From: Fimbriiglobus sp.
GTDB lineage: Bacteria; Planctomycetota; Planctomycetia; Gemmatales; Gemmataceae
Assembly (NCBI GenBank): GCA_025352585.1
Contig: JANXTD010000047.1
Location: 1 to 13,894 of the forward strand
Reading direction: 5' to 3'
DNA: 13,894 nt
Made by a program: the position numbers and the translations under genes. The notes under the pieces were generated by a model. It worked only from the letters and a program-made list of their open reading frames with translations, had not been told where the DNA came from and searched no databases. Below are positions 615 to 12,857 of this stretch, in pieces. Each line of letters opens with the position of its first letter. Within the stretch, counting starts at the first letter, position 1.

Positions 615-1928
615 ATGATCCCCGACCCGGACGACACCATCGTCGCGCTCTCGTCGGCCCCCGGCCCCGGCGGCCGCGCCGTCGTGCGGGTCAGTGGCCC
701 ACGGACCCGCACCGTGGTCCGCGCCGTCACCGCCGACGCCGACACGCCGTTCAAGCTCACGCCGACGCGGTTGACGCTGAGCGGAGTCGGCGCGGCGTTG
801 CCGGCCGACCTGCACTTCCGCGTGGCACCCGACACCTACACCGGGCAAGACCTCGCCGAACTGCACACGATCGCCTGCCCGCCGCTCGTCGAGCGCCTGA
901 TCGCCGACCTGCTCGCTGCGGGGGCGCGGCCGGCCGAGCGCGGCGAGTTCACCCTGCGGGCCTTCCTCGCCGGCAAGAAGGATCTGCCGCAGGCCGAGGC
1001 GGTGCTGGCCGTCATCGACGCCCGCACGCCGGCCGACTTGGGCCACGCGCTCACGCAACTCGCCGGCGGAGTGACGCTGCCGTTGCAAGCGTTGCGCGAA
1101 GACTTGCTCAACCTCGTCGCCGACGTGGAGGCCGGCCTCGACTTCGTCGGCGAGGACATCGAGTTCGTCACGGCCGCCGACGTGATGACGCGCGTGTCCC
1201 GCGGCATCGCCCACCTCGTCAACCTGCGCCGGCAACTCGAAGCCCGCTCCCGCAGTGACGATGCGTTGCGCGTGGTGCTCGTCGGGGCACCGAACGCCGG
1301 CAAGAGTAGTCTTTTCAACGCACTGCTGGGCGAGTCGGCCGCGCTCGTCAGCCCCGTCGCCGGCACGACCCGCGACTACCTGACGGCAAACTTGAGTGTT
1401 GCCGGCGTGGCCGTCGAGCTGATCGACACGGCCGGCCACGAGGCCGCCCGCGACGACATCGAGGCTCAGTCGCAACTCCTCAGCGACGGGCAAAAGTTGC
1501 GGGCCGACTTGGTGCTACACTGCGTCCCGGCCGACGCGCCGGAGGTGCCGCCCGCGCGGTTCCCCCACGCGGCCGAGGTGCTGACGGTCCGCACGAAGTC
1601 CGACCTCGCGCCGTCCTTGCGGGCCGACGTGACGGTGACCCTCTTGGACGCCGGCGGACTCGATAGCCTGTTACTCCACCTCCGAGTCGCCGTCGGCCGG
1701 CTGTCGCAAGCCCCGCTCGCGCCGAGTCAGAGCCGCTGCCGAGTACACGTCGGCCGGGGGCTCGAAGCCCTGCGTCGCGCCCACGAGCACGCCCGCGAGT
1801 CGGACCCGCTCGAGCTGCTCGCTCTGGCGCTCCGGGAGGCGCTCGACGAAGTCGGCGCGATGGCCGGGGCCGTCTACACCAACGACCTGCTCGACCGCAT
1901 CTTCTCGCGCTTTTGCATCGGCAAGTAG
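615..1928 (+). CDS. mnmE: tRNA uridine-5-carboxymethylaminomethyl modification GTPase MnmE (TrmE)
   Basis: MnmE works with MnmG to modify the wobble uridine (position 34) of certain tRNAs, using GTP hydrolysis and a folate one-carbon donor. The 437-residue product is close to the usual 450. The N-terminal folate-binding domain spans about 1-115, helical segments flank the G domain, and the G domain lies near 218-360: G1 GAPNAGKS (224-231), G2 TTRD (251-254), G3 DTAG (271-274), G4 TKSD (327-330, usually NKxD). E283 aligns with the catalytic Glu282 of E. coli MnmE. The protein ends in the hallmark FCIGK, with Cys434. Oddities: the conserved HGGP stretch of the folate domain is replaced by HTIACPP (84-90), and the segment after DTAG is altered. 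The ATG at 615 is supported by GAGGG at 605-609, five bases upstream. mnmG is not in the window. Confidence 0.95.
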   Translation: MIPDPDDTIVALSSAPGPGGRAVVRVSGPRTRTVVRAVTADADTPFKLTPTRLTLSGVGAALPADLHFRVAPDTYTGQDLAELHTIACPPLVERLIADLLAAGARPAERGEFTLRAFLAGKKDLPQAEAVLAVIDARTPADLGHALTQLAGGVTLPLQALREDLLNLVADVEAGLDFVGEDIEFVTAADVMTRVSRGIAHLVNLRRQLEARSRSDDALRVVLVGAPNAGKSSLFNALLGESAALVSPVAGTTRDYLTANLSVAGVAVELIDTAGHEAARDDIEAQSQLLSDGQKLRADLVLHCVPADAPEVPPARFPHAAEVLTVRTKSDLAPSLRADVTVTLLDAGGLDSLLLHLRVAVGRLSQAPLAPSQSRCRVHVGRGLEALRRAHEHARESDPLELLALALREALDEVGAMAGAVYTNDLLDRIFSRFCIGK

Positions 1929-1936
1929 TTCCTAAG

Positions 1937-1952
1937 CGGCACGCCACTTGCG
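1937..1952 (+). promoter_or_regulatory. Sigma-54 (-24/-12) promoter before the pentapeptide/channel gene
   Basis: The sequence CGGCACGCCACTTGCG matches the sigma-54 consensus TGGCACG-N4-TTGCW at every core position. GG is at 1938-1939 and GC at 1950-1951, with the required 10 bases between. Only the outer T and final W differ. It sits in the 72-base gap after mnmE and predicts a start of transcription near 1963, about 38 bases before the ATG at 2001. A nearly identical element precedes the next transcription unit. The match is seen directly; activity is inferred. Confidence 0.75.
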
Positions 1953-2000
1953 TGAACGTATCGGGCCACCTTCGCGCCGCGGGACGACTCCGGACACACC

Positions 2001-3374
2001 ATGCAAGCAGCCGAACGCCCCGCCGCACACGCCGACGCCCTGGCATCGCTCGCCGTGGCGACTCCGGCCGAACGTGCGGCCACGGTCCTGGCGATGCTCC
2101 AAGCCCTGACGCCCGACCGGCGACTGGTGCTCGGCGCGGTTGCCGGCGTCGGGGCCATCCTCGACGACGTGGCGTTGCCGGGGGCGCGGATGCCGTCGGC
2201 CGACCTGGCGGGGGCCAAGGCGCGACGGGCCGACCTGCGGCGGGCCGACCTCGAAGGCGCGGACTTGCGCGGGGCCGACCTCGGCGGGTCGCGGCTGGGC
2301 CGGGCGATTTTGGCGACGGCCAACCTGGGCGGGGCCGAGTTGGCGGCGACCGACCTGACCGGGGCCGACTTGAGCAAAGCCAACCTCGGCAAGGCGCTGT
2401 GCGAGGAGGCCTGCTTCGCCGGGGCCAAGTTGCGCTTCGCCGACCTGCGCGACGCGACGTGCGAGCAGGCCAAGTTCCCGCGCGCGGACCTCTGGGGGGC
2501 CGACCTCACCGGGGCCGAGTGCGGCCGCGCCGACTTCCGCCGCGCGGTCTTGACCGAGGCGTCGGCGTGCGGGGCCGACTTCCGCGGGGCCGACCTGCGC
2601 GGGGCCAACCTGACCCGCGCCGACTTCCGGGCGGCCGACCTGTCGCGGGCCGACTTGCGGGGGGCGCACGTCGTCGGGGCCGACTTCCGCGGGGCCAACC
2701 TCCAGCACGCCCGCCTCGACGGCCTCGACCTCACCGCCGTCGCCCTCGAAGGCGTGCGACTCGCCGGGGCACAGCTCGACGGCGCGCGCCTCGAGTGGCG
2801 GCAGTTCGGCGAGCGCCTCGGCGAGGAGATCGGCGGCGACATCGAGGCGGCGCGGGGCGGCTACCTCACGCTCGAGCGCGTCTTCATCGCCCTGGGCGAC
2901 ACCGCCGCGGCGAGTTGGGCGTACCTGCGTCGCCGCCGCATGGAGAAGCGACACGCCTGGCGCGCGGCCAAGCACCGCTGGGCGCAGCGCCGGCCCGTCG
3001 CCGCGCTCAAGGCGGCCGGGGCCGCGGCGGGCGACCAGGGCATCGAGTGGCTGTGCGACTACGGCGAGAGCGTCGGCCGGGTGCTGGGCGCGCTCGCCGC
3101 GGTCTTCGTCGGCTTCGCCGTGCTCTACGGCGTCACGCAAAGCGTCGTCCGCGTCGGGACGGGGCCGGACGGCGTCGAGGTGCGGCAGGTCACCGCCGAC
3201 CCGTCGGACCTGGCGATCTTTAGCCTGCTCGCGCTGACCACCTCGGGGTCGCCGGTGGTGGCCCTCCAACCGCGCGACCAGTTCGTCCACTTCCTGACGG
3301 GCATCCAGGCGCTCTTCGGCATCTCGCTGACGGGACTGCTCGGCTTCGTCGTCGGCAACCGCATCCGCCGCTGA
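2001..3374 (+). CDS. Pentapeptide-repeat protein with C-terminal two-helix ion-channel-like domain
   Basis: A 457-residue product. Residues about 57-266 are an almost unbroken run of A(D/N)LXX pentapeptides, expected to form a right-handed quadrilateral beta-helix. A linker follows (about 285-355) with the pattern LERVFIALGD...ASWAYLRRRRMEKR...CDYGES, which I associate with pentapeptide-channel fusions. The end has a hydrophobic helix (about 359-378), a re-entrant pore-like segment (DLAIFSLLALTTSGSP, about 403-418) and a second helix (about 431-452), then a basic tail. This order matches the two-transmembrane Ion_trans_2 architecture. The selectivity filter, usually T-V-G-Y-G, reads T-S-G-S-P, so potassium selectivity is doubtful. 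There is no signal peptide, so the repeats should be cytoplasmic. The binding-site match before ATG 2001 is weak (GGA at 1992-1994). A sigma-54-type promoter lies upstream. The channel role is inferred from topology. Confidence 0.85.
   Translation: MQAAERPAAHADALASLAVATPAERAATVLAMLQALTPDRRLVLGAVAGVGAILDDVALPGARMPSADLAGAKARRADLRRADLEGADLRGADLGGSRLGRAILATANLGGAELAATDLTGADLSKANLGKALCEEACFAGAKLRFADLRDATCEQAKFPRADLWGADLTGAECGRADFRRAVLTEASACGADFRGADLRGANLTRADFRAADLSRADLRGAHVVGADFRGANLQHARLDGLDLTAVALEGVRLAGAQLDGARLEWRQFGERLGEEIGGDIEAARGGYLTLERVFIALGDTAAASWAYLRRRRMEKRHAWRAAKHRWAQRRPVAALKAAGAAAGDQGIEWLCDYGESVGRVLGALAAVFVGFAVLYGVTQSVVRVGTGPDGVEVRQVTADPSDLAIFSLLALTTSGSPVVALQPRDQFVHFLTGIQALFGISLTGLLGFVVGNRIRR
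2169..2798 (+). repeat. Degenerate 15-base coding repeat encoding pentapeptides
   Basis: Units with the core GGGGCCGAC / GCCGACCTG recur at 15- and 30-base intervals across this stretch, each encoding one five-residue turn (A-D/N-L-x-x). About 42 turns are present, with the central Leu or Phe mostly conserved. The DNA repeats are divergent rather than identical, as expected for an old protein repeat instead of a recent tandem expansion. The antisense strand is stop-free over the same region only because of this composition. Confidence 0.8.
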
Positions 3375-3388
3375 CACGAGACTCCGGA

Positions 3389-3404
3389 CGGCACGCCGAT
3401 TGCA
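3389..3404 (+). promoter_or_regulatory. Sigma-54 (-24/-12) promoter before the transporter-kinase unit
   Basis: CGGCACGCCGATTGCA carries GG at 3390-3391 and GC at 3402-3403, separated by exactly 10 bases, and matches GGCACG-N4-TTGCA fully. It is identical to the element at 1937-1952 in 13 of 16 positions. Predicted transcription start is near 3415, about 44 bases before the ATG at 3459. Because the four genes from 3459 to 9314 are nearly contiguous, this promoter could drive all of them. Confidence 0.75.
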
Positions 3405-3458
3405 ACATTTCTTGGTGGAAAGCCCGTTACGGTTTCGCCGCCCTGGGACTCGCACGAC

Positions 3459-5336
3459 ATGACGACCCGCGCCCCCGCCTGGCACCGCTCGCTCCCCGCC
3501 GTCGCGGTCGGGGCGGTGATCGTTACCGGCGTGCTGATCGTCGCCAAGCCGGTCATCGTGCCGCTCGCGCTGGCGCTACTGCTGACGTTCGTCCTCTCGC
3601 CGGTCGTCGCGGCCTTGCAGCAGCGGCTCGGCCTGAAGCGCGTCTACGCCGTCATCGCCACCGCCCTGCTTACGTTCTCGGTCATGGGCGGGGTCGGGTA
3701 CGTCGTCGCGCTGCAAATCCAGGGGCTGGCGCAGGACATCACGAAGCACGAGAAGAACATCCGCACCAAGATCGACGGCCTCCGCGGCACCGGCAAGGGG
3801 ACGTTCACCGAACTCCTCAAGATGTTCCATGACCTGACCGAAGGGCCGGTCGGGCCGACCCCGGAGGCCACGCCGAGCGACACCGCGAAGCCGGCAGTGC
3901 CGGTGGTGCCCGTCGTGCTTTCGCAGCCGAAGGAGTCGGGGTTCTCGCGGATCGCCGACTCGGTGCTGCCGGTTCTCGAGCCGCTCGCCACGGCCGGCCT
4001 CGTGGTGATCCTCGTGATCTTCATGCTGATGAACCACGAGGATCTGCGCGACCGGCTCATCGGTCTCGTCGGGCAGAGCCGGCTGTCGAGTACGACCCGC
4101 GCGATGGGCGATGCGACCGGGCGGGTCGGCCGCTACCTGCTCTCGGTGCTGGCGGTGAATATCGTCTTCGGGGTGCTGTTCGCCGCCGGGCTGTGGCTGC
4201 TGGGGGTGCCGTACGGCTTCCTCTGGGGCTTCCTCGCAGCGATGCTGCGCTTCATCCCGTTCCTGGGGACCTGGGCCGCCGCGTCGTTCCCGATCCTGCT
4301 GAGCTTCGCCACCGCCCCCGACTGGGCGCAGCCGCTGGAGGTGTTCGCCTTCTTCGTCACGCTCGACCTGATCACCGCCAACGTCGTCGAGCCGATCGTG
4401 TTTGGCCACGGCACCGGCGTCTCGCCGATCGCGCTGCTGGTCGCGGCGGCCTTCTGGGCCTGGGTCTGGGGGCCGATCGGCTTACTGCTGGCGACGCCGC
4501 TGACCGTCTGCCTCGTCGTCCTGGGACAGTACGTCCCGCGACTCGGCTTCTTGACGCTGCTCCTCGGGAACGCCCAGGCCTTGCCGCCCCCAGCGCGGCT
4601 GTACCAGCGGCTGTTCGCGCGGGACAAGCGCGAGGCGGGGGAGCGGGCGCAGGAGTACGCGGCGTTGCAAGGCCTCGAGGGCGTGTTCGACGACATGATC
4701 GTGCCGGCGATGGTGATCGCCCGCCGCGACCGCGAGCAGGGGGCGCTCACCCCGGACGGCGAAGAGTTCGTCCTGACCGCGACCCGCGAGATTATCGCCG
4801 CGGTCGTGGCCAAGCAGGGGCTGCCGGCCGTAGAGCCGGTCGCCGTGGTCGTCGCTTGCCCGGCGCACCACCCCGCCGAGGAACCGACGCTCGACATGCT
4901 CGCCGCGCTGCTCGGCCCGGACGGCGTCCGCGTCGAGGCGCTGACGGCGAAGTCGCTGCCGTCGGAGGTTCTCGAGCGCGTCGAGCTTTTGAAGCCCGAG
5001 GCGGTGTTCCTCTCGGTGCTGCCGCCGGGCGGGCTGAGCCAGGCGGCGTACCTGTGCCGGCAACTCCGCAAGAAGTTTCCCACGCTGAAGATCGTCATCG
5101 GCTGGTGGGGGCCGGAGCGCAGTTACGACCGGCTGCTGGTCAAGATGCGCAAGGCCGGGGCCAGTTACGTGACGACTTCGTTCCGCCAGAGTCGCACGCA
5201 ACTGCGGCACGTCACCGACGTGCCACTGCCCGCGGAGGTTCCGCAAGCGGCGGTCGCGAAGCCGAATGGTGTCGGCGGCATCCCGCCGAGTCTGGGTCGC
5301 AAGGCGAAGATGAAGGCCATCAGAGGTAAATCGTGA
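3459..5336 (+). CDS. AI-2E/PerM-family membrane transporter with C-terminal B12-binding-like domain
   Basis: A 625-residue product. Residues about 15-365 form the AI-2E (PerM, formerly DUF20/UPF0118) membrane domain. Two helices sit near the N-terminus (about 15-50), followed by others near 64-85 and 178-191. A variable loop rich in Pro and Thr lies between (about 125-160). The family signatures RFIPFLGTW (264-272) and the long EPIVFG...GPIGLLLATPL region (311-349) are clear. Members export or take up diverse small solutes; a quorum-signal substrate should not be assumed. Residues about 460-585 form a Rossmann-like alpha/beta domain with the layout of B12-binding modules (VVVACPAHHPAEEPTLDMLA, then AVFLSVLPPGG, then LKIVIGWWG). 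It lacks the DxHxxG cobalamin-ligand motif, so it probably senses or binds something else. The gene overlaps the kinase gene by four bases, suggesting translational coupling. Confidence 0.88.
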   Translation: MTTRAPAWHRSLPAVAVGAVIVTGVLIVAKPVIVPLALALLLTFVLSPVVAALQQRLGLKRVYAVIATALLTFSVMGGVGYVVALQIQGLAQDITKHEKNIRTKIDGLRGTGKGTFTELLKMFHDLTEGPVGPTPEATPSDTAKPAVPVVPVVLSQPKESGFSRIADSVLPVLEPLATAGLVVILVIFMLMNHEDLRDRLIGLVGQSRLSSTTRAMGDATGRVGRYLLSVLAVNIVFGVLFAAGLWLLGVPYGFLWGFLAAMLRFIPFLGTWAAASFPILLSFATAPDWAQPLEVFAFFVTLDLITANVVEPIVFGHGTGVSPIALLVAAAFWAWVWGPIGLLLATPLTVCLVVLGQYVPRLGFLTLLLGNAQALPPPARLYQRLFARDKREAGERAQEYAALQGLEGVFDDMIVPAMVIARRDREQGALTPDGEEFVLTATREIIAAVVAKQGLPAVEPVAVVVACPAHHPAEEPTLDMLAALLGPDGVRVEALTAKSLPSEVLERVELLKPEAVFLSVLPPGGLSQAAYLCRQLRKKFPTLKIVIGWWGPERSYDRLLVKMRKAGASYVTTSFRQSRTQLRHVTDVPLPAEVPQAAVAKPNGVGGIPPSLGRKAKMKAIRGKS

Positions 5337-7978
5337 CCGCCATCCGCAAACTGATCGCCGGCGCGGCCTGGGTGGGTCTGGCCGTCGCGTTGGGTGTCCT
5401 GGCGCTGAACGCGCTGGTTGCCCACCGCAACACCCGGCAACTCTACGACGACGCCGGCTGGGTCGATCACACCCACCAGGTGCTCCACGGCCTGGGCGAC
5501 ATCTACGCCACCGTGCTGGAGGCCGAGTCGAACCAGCGCGGTTACCTGATCGGCGGCGACGGGTCGCTCCGCGACTCGTACCGCGCCGCCTCGGCGGAGG
5601 CTGCCAAGCAACTCGACGCGGTCGGGGAACTGACGGCCGACAACCCGTCGCAACAAGCGCGCGTTTCGACGCTTCGCGAGGCCATCGCCGTGAAGTTCCG
5701 GCTGATGGACGAGAACGTCGCGAGGCGGGAAAGCCAGGCTCCGATTGATGTCAGTCGCGTCGCTCAGGGCCGGCAGGCGATGAGCGTCGTGCGGGACGCC
5801 GTCGCCTTGATGGAGTCGGAGGAACGCGGGCTTCTCGCCGCCCGCTCCGCGGAGACGCAAGTCAGCTACCGCCGCACTAACATCGCGTTCGCCGTCGCTA
5901 GCCTGCTCGCCGCGGCGGTCCTCGTCACCGCGTTCCTACTGATTCGCCGCGACCTCACCCGACGCCAGGCCGAGGAGGAAAGCGCGCTCGAAGCCGCACG
6001 CTTCACGCGGATGATCCTCGAATCGACCGCCGAGGGGATTTACGGCGTCGATCCCGACGGCCACTGCACCTTCGTCAACACCGCCGGGGCGCGAATGCTC
6101 GGCCACGAGCCGGCCGAACTGCTGGGCAAGAATCTCCACGAACTCGCCCACCACACGCACCCCGACGGCACCCCTTACCCGGCGACCGAGTGCCCGATTT
6201 ATCAGGGGCTGAAGGCCCGCCGGCGCAGCGTGCGCATCGATACCGAGGTGTTCTGGCGTAAAGACGGCACGTCGTTCCCCGTCGAATACGCCTCCGCCCC
6301 GATGCGCGACGACGGCGAGTCGATCGGTGCCGTCGTGTCGTTCAACAACATCACCGCCCGCAAGCGTGCAGAAGAGGATTTGCGGCTCGCCACCGCGGCG
6401 GCGGAGGCGGCGAACCAGGCCAAGAGTACCTTCCTCGCCAACATGAGCCACGAGTTGCGCACTCCGCTCAACGCCGTGATCCTGTACAGCGAACTCCTCC
6501 AGGAGGAGGCCGAGGACCAGGGCCTCGAATCGTTCCTGCCCGACCTCGAAAAGATTCGCTCCGCCGGCCGGCACTTGCTCGGCCTCATCAACAACATCCT
6601 CGACCTGTCGAAGATCGAGGCCGGCAAAATGGACCTGTATCTCGAAACCTTCGACCTCAAAGAAGTGGTCAACGACGTGGCGGCGACTTCGCGGCCGCTG
6701 TTCGAGAAGCGGCACAACGCCCTGACCCTCGACCTCGCCGCGGACACCGGCGGCATGCACGCCGACCAGACCAAGGTGCGGCAGATCCTCTTCAACCTGC
6801 TCTCGAACGCCTCGAAGTTCACCGAGAACGGTACGATCATGCTCAAGGTCACCCGCCACCCCGAGGGCGGCAAGCCAGGCGTCGAGATCCGCGTCGCCGA
6901 CACCGGCATCGGCATGACGGCGGAGCAGATCGACAGGCTGTTCCAGCCGTTCACGCAGGCCGACGCCTCGACGACGCGCAAGTTTGGCGGCACCGGGTTG
7001 GGGCTGACGATCGTGAAGCGCTTCTGCGAGCTGATGGGGGGCCACATCGACGTGGCCAGCGAAGCCGGGAAGGGCACTACGTTCACCGTCTGGCTGCCGG
7101 CCGAGGTCGCGCCGACGCCCACCGAGTCGATGGCCGACATCGCCCTGCCGGCGGTCGAGGGGAAGGCCGGCGGGCTGACAGTGCTCATCGTCGACGACGA
7201 CCCGACGGTGCGCGAGATCCTCAGCCGCGTGCTGGCGAAGGAGGGCTACCGCGTCCGCACCGCCCCCGACGGCAAGGCCGGCCTGGAGGCGGCGGCGGCC
7301 GAGCGGCCGGACCTCATCGTCCTCGACGTGATGATGCCCAAGATGGACGGCTGGGCGGTGTTGAGTGCGCTCAAAGCCGACCCGACGTTGGACGACGTGC
7401 CGGTGGTCATGCATACCATGGTGGACGACCGCAACCTGGGCTACGCCCTCGGCGCGTCGGACTACCTCACGAAGCCCGTGGACCGCGACCGCCTGGTGTC
7501 GGTGCTCAACAAGTATCGGGCGAAGTCCGCGGCCGGGCCGGTGCTGGTGGTCGAGGACGACGACGACACCCGCGAGGCGGTCCACCGGGCACTCGCCCAC
7601 GGCGGCTGGCAGGTCGCCGAGGCGAACAACGGCCGCGTCGCCCTGCAACGGCTCGCCGAGGTCAAGCCGGCGGCGGTGATTCTGGACTTGACGATGCCCG
7701 AGATGGACGGCTTCGAGTTCCTCGAGGAGATGCGCAAGAACCCCGAGTGGGCCGACGTGCCGGTCGTAGTACTGACCGCCAAGGAGTTGACGACCGAGGA
7801 GCGCGATCGGCTCAACGGCCACGTCGAGAAGGTGCTACGCAAGGGTGCCCAGGGCCAGGAGGACATCTTGCAGGAGGTCCGCCGGCTGGTCGCCGTCCAC
7901 GCCCGCCAGTCGCCGGCCGCCGCGCCGGCCGACGGCCGCAAGATTTACGATGCGACGCAGTCCGGTAACACCGCCTGA
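5333..7978 (+). CDS. Hybrid sensor histidine kinase (CHASE3-PAS-HisKA-HATPase-REC-REC)
   Basis: An 881-residue membrane kinase. A first membrane helix (about 11-29) and second (about 184-204) flank an extracytoplasmic CHASE3-type helical sensor (ESNQRGYLIGGD at 65-76). A PAS domain spans about 222-345. The HisKA box MSHELRTPLN carries the phospho-accepting His373. The ATPase domain shows the N box (NLLSNASKF, 488-496), G1 DTGIGM (523-528) and G2 GGTGLGL (552-558). Receiver 1 (about 616-728) has acidic D621-D623, phospho-site Asp665, Thr695 and Lys714. Receiver 2 (about 737-855) has the acidic cluster 741-745, Asp785, Thr815 and Lys837. No histidine phosphotransfer domain is fused. The GTG start at 5333 lies inside the upstream stop (GTGA) and has AGAGG at 5322-5326, six bases before it. 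The signal sensed is unknown. Confidence 0.95.
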   Translation: MTAIRKLIAGAAWVGLAVALGVLALNALVAHRNTRQLYDDAGWVDHTHQVLHGLGDIYATVLEAESNQRGYLIGGDGSLRDSYRAASAEAAKQLDAVGELTADNPSQQARVSTLREAIAVKFRLMDENVARRESQAPIDVSRVAQGRQAMSVVRDAVALMESEERGLLAARSAETQVSYRRTNIAFAVASLLAAAVLVTAFLLIRRDLTRRQAEEESALEAARFTRMILESTAEGIYGVDPDGHCTFVNTAGARMLGHEPAELLGKNLHELAHHTHPDGTPYPATECPIYQGLKARRRSVRIDTEVFWRKDGTSFPVEYASAPMRDDGESIGAVVSFNNITARKRAEEDLRLATAAAEAANQAKSTFLANMSHELRTPLNAVILYSELLQEEAEDQGLESFLPDLEKIRSAGRHLLGLINNILDLSKIEAGKMDLYLETFDLKEVVNDVAATSRPLFEKRHNALTLDLAADTGGMHADQTKVRQILFNLLSNASKFTENGTIMLKVTRHPEGGKPGVEIRVADTGIGMTAEQIDRLFQPFTQADASTTRKFGGTGLGLTIVKRFCELMGGHIDVASEAGKGTTFTVWLPAEVAPTPTESMADIALPAVEGKAGGLTVLIVDDDPTVREILSRVLAKEGYRVRTAPDGKAGLEAAAAERPDLIVLDVMMPKMDGWAVLSALKADPTLDDVPVVMHTMVDDRNLGYALGASDYLTKPVDRDRLVSVLNKYRAKSAAGPVLVVEDDDDTREAVHRALAHGGWQVAEANNGRVALQRLAEVKPAAVILDLTMPEMDGFEFLEEMRKNPEWADVPVVVLTAKELTTEERDRLNGHVEKVLRKGAQGQEDILQEVRRLVAVHARQSPAAAPADGRKIYDATQSGNTA

Positions 7979-7992
7979 ACGGGAGGGTAAGA

Positions 7993-8373
7993 ATGCCACG
8001 GATTCTGATCGTCGAGGACAACGAGGAGAACCGGGACGCCCTGTCGCGCCGCCTCAAGCGCCGCGGCTTCGACATCGTCATGGCGGTGGACGGCCTGCAA
8101 GGCGTGGCGATGGCCAAGAGCGAGAAGCCGGACCTGATCCTCATGGACATGAACCTGCCCGAACTCGACGGCTGGGAGGCGACCCGCCAGGTTAAGGCCG
8201 ACGCGGAGACCAAAGACGTGCCGGTGATCGCGCTGACCGCCCACGCGCTTGCCGGCGACAAGGAGCGGGCGATCGCCGCCGGCTGCACCGACTACCACAC
8301 GAAGCCCGTCGAATTGCCGAAGTTGCTCGAACAGATTGAGGCGATCCTGAAGGCCCGGCCGGCGACCGCGTGA
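7993..8373 (+). CDS. Single-domain response regulator (CheY/DivK-like receiver)
   Basis: A 126-residue stand-alone receiver with no output domain. The acidic pocket is E8-D9, the phosphorylation site Asp52 lies in LMDMNLPELDGW, with Thr82 (ALTAH) and Lys104 (HTKPV) completing the active site. It starts 14 bases after the hybrid kinase stop, with a strong GGGAGGG site at 7981-7987 and five-base spacing, so it is probably made in higher amounts than the kinase. It may receive phosphate in a relay or bind a partner protein when phosphorylated. It cannot itself activate a sigma-54 promoter because it lacks an AAA+ domain. Confidence 0.95.
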   Translation: MPRILIVEDNEENRDALSRRLKRRGFDIVMAVDGLQGVAMAKSEKPDLILMDMNLPELDGWEATRQVKADAETKDVPVIALTAHALAGDKERAIAAGCTDYHTKPVELPKLLEQIEAILKARPATA

Positions 8374-12750: not shown

Positions 12751-12766
12751 TGGCCCGGAGGTTGCA
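12751..12766 (+). promoter_or_regulatory. Candidate sigma-54 promoter before the TIGR03067 gene
   Basis: TGGCCCGGAGGTTGCA fits TGGCACG-N4-TTGCA with one core mismatch (C for A). GG at 12752-12753 and GC at 12764-12765 have the correct 10-base spacing. Predicted start near 12777, about 80 bases before the chosen ATG. Caution: GCCCGG (12753-12758) and CCGGGC (12768-12773) can form a 6-bp stem over the same bases, so this could instead be part of a weak cobL 3' hairpin. Confidence 0.5.
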
Positions 12767-12857
12767 GCCGGGCGAGACTGTCCGCCGCGCTAGTAGCCCG
12801 CTAGAACGGCGTCGCCGGCTTTTGCGTCACCCCCTGAAACCGATGAGGATGTTTGCG

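Follow-up and report, generated by a model that had tools for sequence, protein, structure and literature searches.

The best-known roles of sigma-54 are in nitrogen and flagellar control in Pseudomonadota. Its canonical promoter, named for the -24 and -12 positions, has the consensus TGGCAC-N5-TTGC. For planctomycetes, the main text of a recent study (Carrera-Reyna et al., 2025; PMC12316311) gives the sigma-54 consensus as TGGCACN5-7TTGCT, predicts sigma-54 control of the chaperonins and describes the predicted regulon of Planctomycetia as enriched for GroEL, GroES, DnaK, MscS channels (COG0668) and UspA. Passages on the stress response of Rhodopirellula baltica describe heat induction of GroEL, DnaK and Cpn10, and one stress gene is said there to have a proposed sigma-54 promoter (PMC2754498).

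The DNA considered here is a stretch of 13,894 nucleotides (the window), which is contig C312 of the genome G000 (4.82 Mb, 964 contigs, 87% complete), with a G+C content of 69.3%. The source organism belongs to the class Planctomycetia, and a second genome, G001, was scored as the same genus and is called the congener below. Two 16-mers (sites 1 and 2) stand in the order mnmE, site 1, pentapeptide membrane protein, site 2, AI-2E transporter, CHASE3-PAS hybrid kinase, single response regulator (Table 1). Judged from the sequence, both are very probably genuine -24/-12 promoter elements.

Table 1. Predicted promoter elements and genes of the window.
Feature	Position	Strand	Details
Predicted sigma-54 (-24/-12) promoter element 1 (site 1), CGGCACGCCACTTGCG	1937..1952	+	exact GGCACG-N4-TTGC; score 0.92 of consensus; predicted +1 at 1963
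Predicted sigma-54 (-24/-12) promoter element 2 (site 2), CGGCACGCCGATTGCA	3389..3404	+	exact GGCACG-N4-TTGC; score 0.97 of consensus; predicted +1 at 3415
Third, weaker sigma-54-like site, TGGCCCGGAGGTTGCA	12751..12766	+	score 0.93; intergenic; precedes secreted-protein ORF called at 12849
mnmE (tRNA-modification GTPase)	615..1928	+	Pfam MnmE_helical 3.1e-30, TrmE_N 1e-22; stop 8 bases before site 1
Pentapeptide-repeat protein, two C-terminal membrane helices and pore-helix-like segment	2001..3374	+	Pfam Pentapeptide 8.4e-48
AI-2E family transporter, C-terminal B12-binding-like domain	3459..5336	+	Pfam AI-2E_transport 2.3e-45; B12-binding 3.3e-07, below cut-off
CHASE3-PAS-HisKA-HATPase-REC-REC hybrid histidine kinase	5333..7978	+	4-base overlap with transporter gene
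Single-domain response regulator	7993..8373	+	Pfam Response_reg 1.4e-26

The first-pass annotation had paired the two 16-mers by their agreement in 13 of 16 bases, and by a GG and a GC ten bases apart, and all of this, with the coordinates, was confirmed; both also carry the words GGCAC and TTGC. The leaders of 38 and 44 bases that it proposed, and the predicted starts, agree by arithmetic when transcription is taken to begin 12 bases after GC. Site 1 occupies the 72-base gap between mnmE and the pentapeptide gene (1929-2000), and site 2 the 84-base gap between the pentapeptide gene and the AI-2E transporter gene (3375-3458); the base after GC is G in site 1, against A or T in the consensus. 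The annotation also held that chance occurrence of both sites was unlikely, and this stood. In 400 first-order Markov windows of the same composition the exact core GGCACG-N4-TTGC was absent from 380, occurred once in 20 and twice in none, and both sites fall in gaps of a window that is 95.3% coding by the gene model used. Only the exact core is informative, because a 15-base pattern with up to three mismatches matched the window 17 times, against 16.5 expected, which is chance level.

Across the whole of G000 the exact core occurs 17 times, compared with four occurrences of the reversed pattern, and its count often exceeds this control among 41 genomes; it does not in G003 (16 vs 17), G034 (15 vs 31) and G035 (18 vs 24). 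Since the core is not above the reversed control in every relative, counts alone are weak evidence; what sets the sites apart is where they lie and not how many there are. The annotation had named an equal frequency of the motif in coding sequence and in gaps as the result that would speak against it, and the opposite was obtained: 13/17 exact cores in G000 and 17/22 in G001 are intergenic, compared with 0/14 for N3 and 1/13 for N5 spacing (1/27 of the spacing variants examined; Fisher p about 1e-9). The distance from the core to the start is 40-85 bases for 9/11 (G000) and 10/15 (G001) of the sites with a called downstream gene. The share in G000 is the same under both gene models used, and that in G001 depends on the window-trained model, as a self-trained model gave 8/22; the latter was replaced because it called coding sequence in the gap known to separate the pentapeptide and AI-2E orthologues. 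Self-trained models, which deserve lower trust, gave 25/34 intergenic sites in G002 and 1/9 in G018 (9 of 31 listed sites). The components of the system are encoded as well. The sigma-54 DNA-binding domain (rpoN) was found in 29 of the 31 genomes searched, with one copy in G000, and the sigma-54 activator domain PF00158 gave nine strong matches and four weak ones in G000. The proposed sigma-54 control of the window promoters is thus supported by intergenic placement, by the N4 spacing and by the presence of rpoN and activator genes in the genome.

The genes that follow the motif elsewhere suggest what kind of regulon the window promoters might belong to. In G000 they encode YflT, DUF4142, an outer-membrane efflux protein, a Rieske/VanA oxygenase, a DUF1559 pilin-like protein and proteins of no or unclear family. 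In the congener they include AI-2E, DUF2171, YflT-like, DUF4142-like (by likeness to G000), efflux protein and GroES genes, among others; GroES was named by eye and precedes the groEL of contig C332. The genes of G002, all named by eye, include GroEL, GroES, a DUF4142 protein and DUF2171-like proteins. Stress-type genes (YflT, DUF4142, DUF2171, GroES/GroEL) therefore recur in the three genomes within a mixed set, whose non-stress members include the Rieske oxygenase, DUF1559 and the no-family proteins. Among DUF4142 loci, a site was present on the coding strand in 10/16 and on the other strand in 5/16. It is likely, on this pattern, that the window promoters form part of a stress-type sigma-54 regulon. 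If the promoters were real but worked in something unconnected with stress, such as nitrogen or envelope metabolism, one could understand why only part of the downstream genes are stress-type by name, and the functions of the pentapeptide and AI-2E proteins are themselves putative. The recurrence of the stress-type genes across G000, G001 and G002 makes this unlikely, as does the tendency of AI-2E, DUF4142 and an NtrC-type activator encoded on contig C109 of G000 (described below) to co-occur in 23 family genomes (p 0.002-0.02, uncorrected for kinship).

The comparison with relatives sets the two sites of the window apart. The AI-2E orthologue of the congener is 81% identical in protein sequence, and site 2 is kept before it as CGGCACGCCGCTTGCT, 50 bases before the start of the match, within a gap that has otherwise diverged. 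More generally, the core is kept in G001 before the AI-2E, YflT, DUF4142 and outer-membrane efflux protein genes. Among 13 AI-2E family orthologues (G000 left out), a site scoring 0.85 or more lies on the coding strand within 200 bases in 7/13 and on the other strand in 1/13 (p 0.03), and the reversed motif gave 1 and 0 on the two strands; within 500 bases the numbers are 8 and 1 (p 0.011). The strand contrast is modest, and six of the 13 have no site within 200 bases. The likelihood that site 2 is a real sigma-54 promoter is high. For site 1, no counterpart was found before the pentapeptide orthologues of G001 or G054, and it might be argued that site 2 is the sole promoter, that site 1 matches by chance and that the pentapeptide gene is transcribed from elsewhere, be it another promoter or read-through from mnmE. 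The missing A or T after GC in site 1 and the position of 4/17 exact matches of G000 within coding sequence point in the same direction. We regard this as quite unlikely. Site 1 has the exact core on the coding strand of a 72-base gap at a typical distance from the start, and even a single match anywhere was rare in the simulated windows. Moreover, the gene upstream of the pentapeptide orthologue in G001 is not mnmE, and therefore the promoter region appears to have been rearranged there. There is a good likelihood that site 1, too, is a real sigma-54 promoter.

The chaperonin genes of the order served to test the prediction. In 40 groEL/groES upstream regions, chosen from more than 100 groEL matches, a site scoring 0.85 or more was present on the coding strand in 37/40 and on the other strand in 4/40, compared with 2/40 on each strand for the reversed motif. 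The regions without a site are L244 and two that are shortened by contig ends (L271 and L275). This set supersedes an earlier scan that took from each genome the groEL copy with the best score, in many cases the second member of a tandem, and gave 7/30 vs 2/30. The base after GC is T or A in all of the 36 sites compared, and the groEL site of G000 reads CGGCATTCGACTTGCT. The genus sites show a preference for a first-position C and for GGCACG that is stricter than sigma-54 needs, which might suggest an element peculiar to the lineage (a protein-binding site or a repeat) that resembles the sigma-54 consensus and is no promoter. This is extremely improbable in view of the chaperonin sites with their invariant T/A, the placement upstream of starts, the strict N4 spacing and the rpoN genes. 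In the neighbouring family, rpoN adjoins a groEL gene in two genomes (contig C5 of G019 and contig C109 of G020).

Upstream of the chaperonin promoters a palindrome, CTGYCA-N3-TGRCAG, was found with two or fewer mismatches in 35/36 regions (among L240-L279), usually about 89 or 122 bases from the sigma-54 site. The count covers 36 of the 37 site-bearing regions; L262, with its site at the extreme end of the sequence examined, was left out. Scrambled palindromes matched a mean of 1.7/36 regions; one of 200 reached 34, and we suppose that it was nearly the same word. The complete genome G003 contains seven exact copies of the palindrome (loci including L358, L360, L364 and L365). Three copies precede groEL, groES and a dnaK-like gene (by eye), each with a sigma-54 site, one has a sigma-54-like site on one side and an NtrC-type gene on the other, one precedes a receiver-domain gene with a site, and two have no site. 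In G003 and G010 an orthologous NtrC-type gene adjoins the palindrome, and in G022 and G023 one lies immediately after groEL; the proteins of these four genomes are 61-68% identical to one another and 34-44% identical to the nine of G000. Palindrome and NtrC-type genes together look like a sigma-54 heat-shock circuit. The exact palindrome is absent from G000, and the window does not contain it anywhere with up to two mismatches; the window promoters therefore appear to be of a class different from groEL, and another activator is likely.

The activator of the window promoters, putatively a shared one as the annotation predicted, is thus probably not that of groESL. Any activator site upstream of either window site would fall inside coding sequence. 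No shared activator-binding word stood out clearly upstream of 30 promoters of the stress set; the top one was not accepted, as it is G+C-rich and occurred in 16/30, compared with 9-12 in shuffled sets. The best candidate, on circumstantial evidence, is an NtrC-type protein encoded on contig C109 of G000 (L308) and contig C321 of G001 (L309). In both genomes three small stress-type genes lie after its gene, every one preceded by an intergenic sigma-54-like site; they encode a YtxH/apolipoprotein-like protein (below the Pfam cut-off), a DUF2383 protein and a short membrane protein, and a CHASE3-PAS sensor gene lies divergently beside the activator. An orthologue of the activator occurs in 10/23 family genomes, including 7/8 with a long AI-2E orthologue (p 0.006, uncorrected for kinship); the layout of the locus is kept in G000 and G001 and not in the other eight loci.

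The products of the window genes deserve separate consideration. The annotation had called the pentapeptide protein channel-like, and the structure model (mean pLDDT 88.9) agrees in topology: a solenoid and a helical linker are followed by two long C-terminal helices flanking a short helix and loop (helices 358-379, 401-413 and 427-456), which is the topology of a two-helix cation channel. The label is fair but unproven, because profile matches to NaK-type potassium channels are non-significant (E 0.23-0.99); the best 50 hits of a fold search with the model listed pentapeptide solenoids and no channel folds. Of 18 genome loci with pentapeptide homologues, seven have a coding-strand site scoring at least 0.82, which precedes the matched stretch by 242-333 bases; six of the seven are in Methylobacterium. 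In these six (L341-L349), TGGCCCCGCCGTTGCA or CGGCCCCGCCGTTGCA is common at 242-310 bases, and the sites are probably shared by descent. The proposed transporter-kinase unit was borne out, as the two genes overlap by four bases, and the response regulator probably belongs to the same transcription unit. Of the 13 loci, those of G001 and G012 have a histidine kinase gene after the AI-2E gene within the 1.5-kb flanks. The B12-binding-like domain at the C-terminus of the transporter, below the Pfam cut-off, is present in the G001 orthologue too.

It is proposed that RpoN-RNA polymerase would bind the -24/-12 elements as a closed complex, which an AAA+ enhancer-binding protein would be required to open. 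One transcript, from near 1963, would encode the pentapeptide membrane protein, and another, from near 3415, the AI-2E transporter, the hybrid kinase and the response regulator. Both would belong to a lineage regulon of single genes with their own sigma-54 sites, in which stress-type genes recur, and induction by stress would be expected. The activator would be one other than that of groESL, with the C109 NtrC-type protein, encoded amid stress-type genes with their own sigma-54-like sites, as the candidate. As a whole, the explanation by genuine sigma-54 promoters in a stress-gene-rich lineage regulon, served by an activator different from that of groESL, is highly probable in our judgement. 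A broader and tentative proposal, to which we give somewhat less than an even chance, is that sigma-54 has the role of a stress sigma factor, with at least two dedicated activators, in Gemmatales and in the neighbouring family. One, binding the palindrome and encoded by the orthologous NtrC-type genes beside it or beside groEL, would drive groEL, groES and dnaK, and the C109 protein would drive a second set that includes the pentapeptide and AI-2E transporter-kinase genes of the window, perhaps sensing envelope or osmotic stress via CHASE3 kinases.

In this planctomycete family, then, sigma-54 sites stand before chaperonin, small stress-protein and membrane-protein genes, a set to which the window contributes a pentapeptide membrane protein and an AI-2E transporter paired with a kinase. 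For work on planctomycetes, a group with few genetic parts, this offers a regulon that can be tested, a promoter motif that can be put to use and a definite hypothesis on the activator. Among the papers listed by searches on planctomycete sigma-54/RpoN, subscription papers mostly outside, no title or abstract opening names the AI-2E and pentapeptide gene types or the palindrome. The stress response of R. baltica differs in that rpoN is not heat-induced, and an AI-2E or pentapeptide gene is not named in the passages concerned (PMC2754498). The main text on the Planctomycetia regulon does not mention AI-2E (COG0628), pentapeptide, COG3652 or COG3237; the class is the same, and the enriched targets described there, chaperones included, agree with the present results (PMC12316311). 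Compared with canonical sigma-54 promoters, the window sites begin with C, site 1 has G after GC, and no activator-binding site was recognised for them. They share with those promoters the spacing of GG and GC, the core words, the placement before genes and a genome that encodes RpoN and AAA+ activators.
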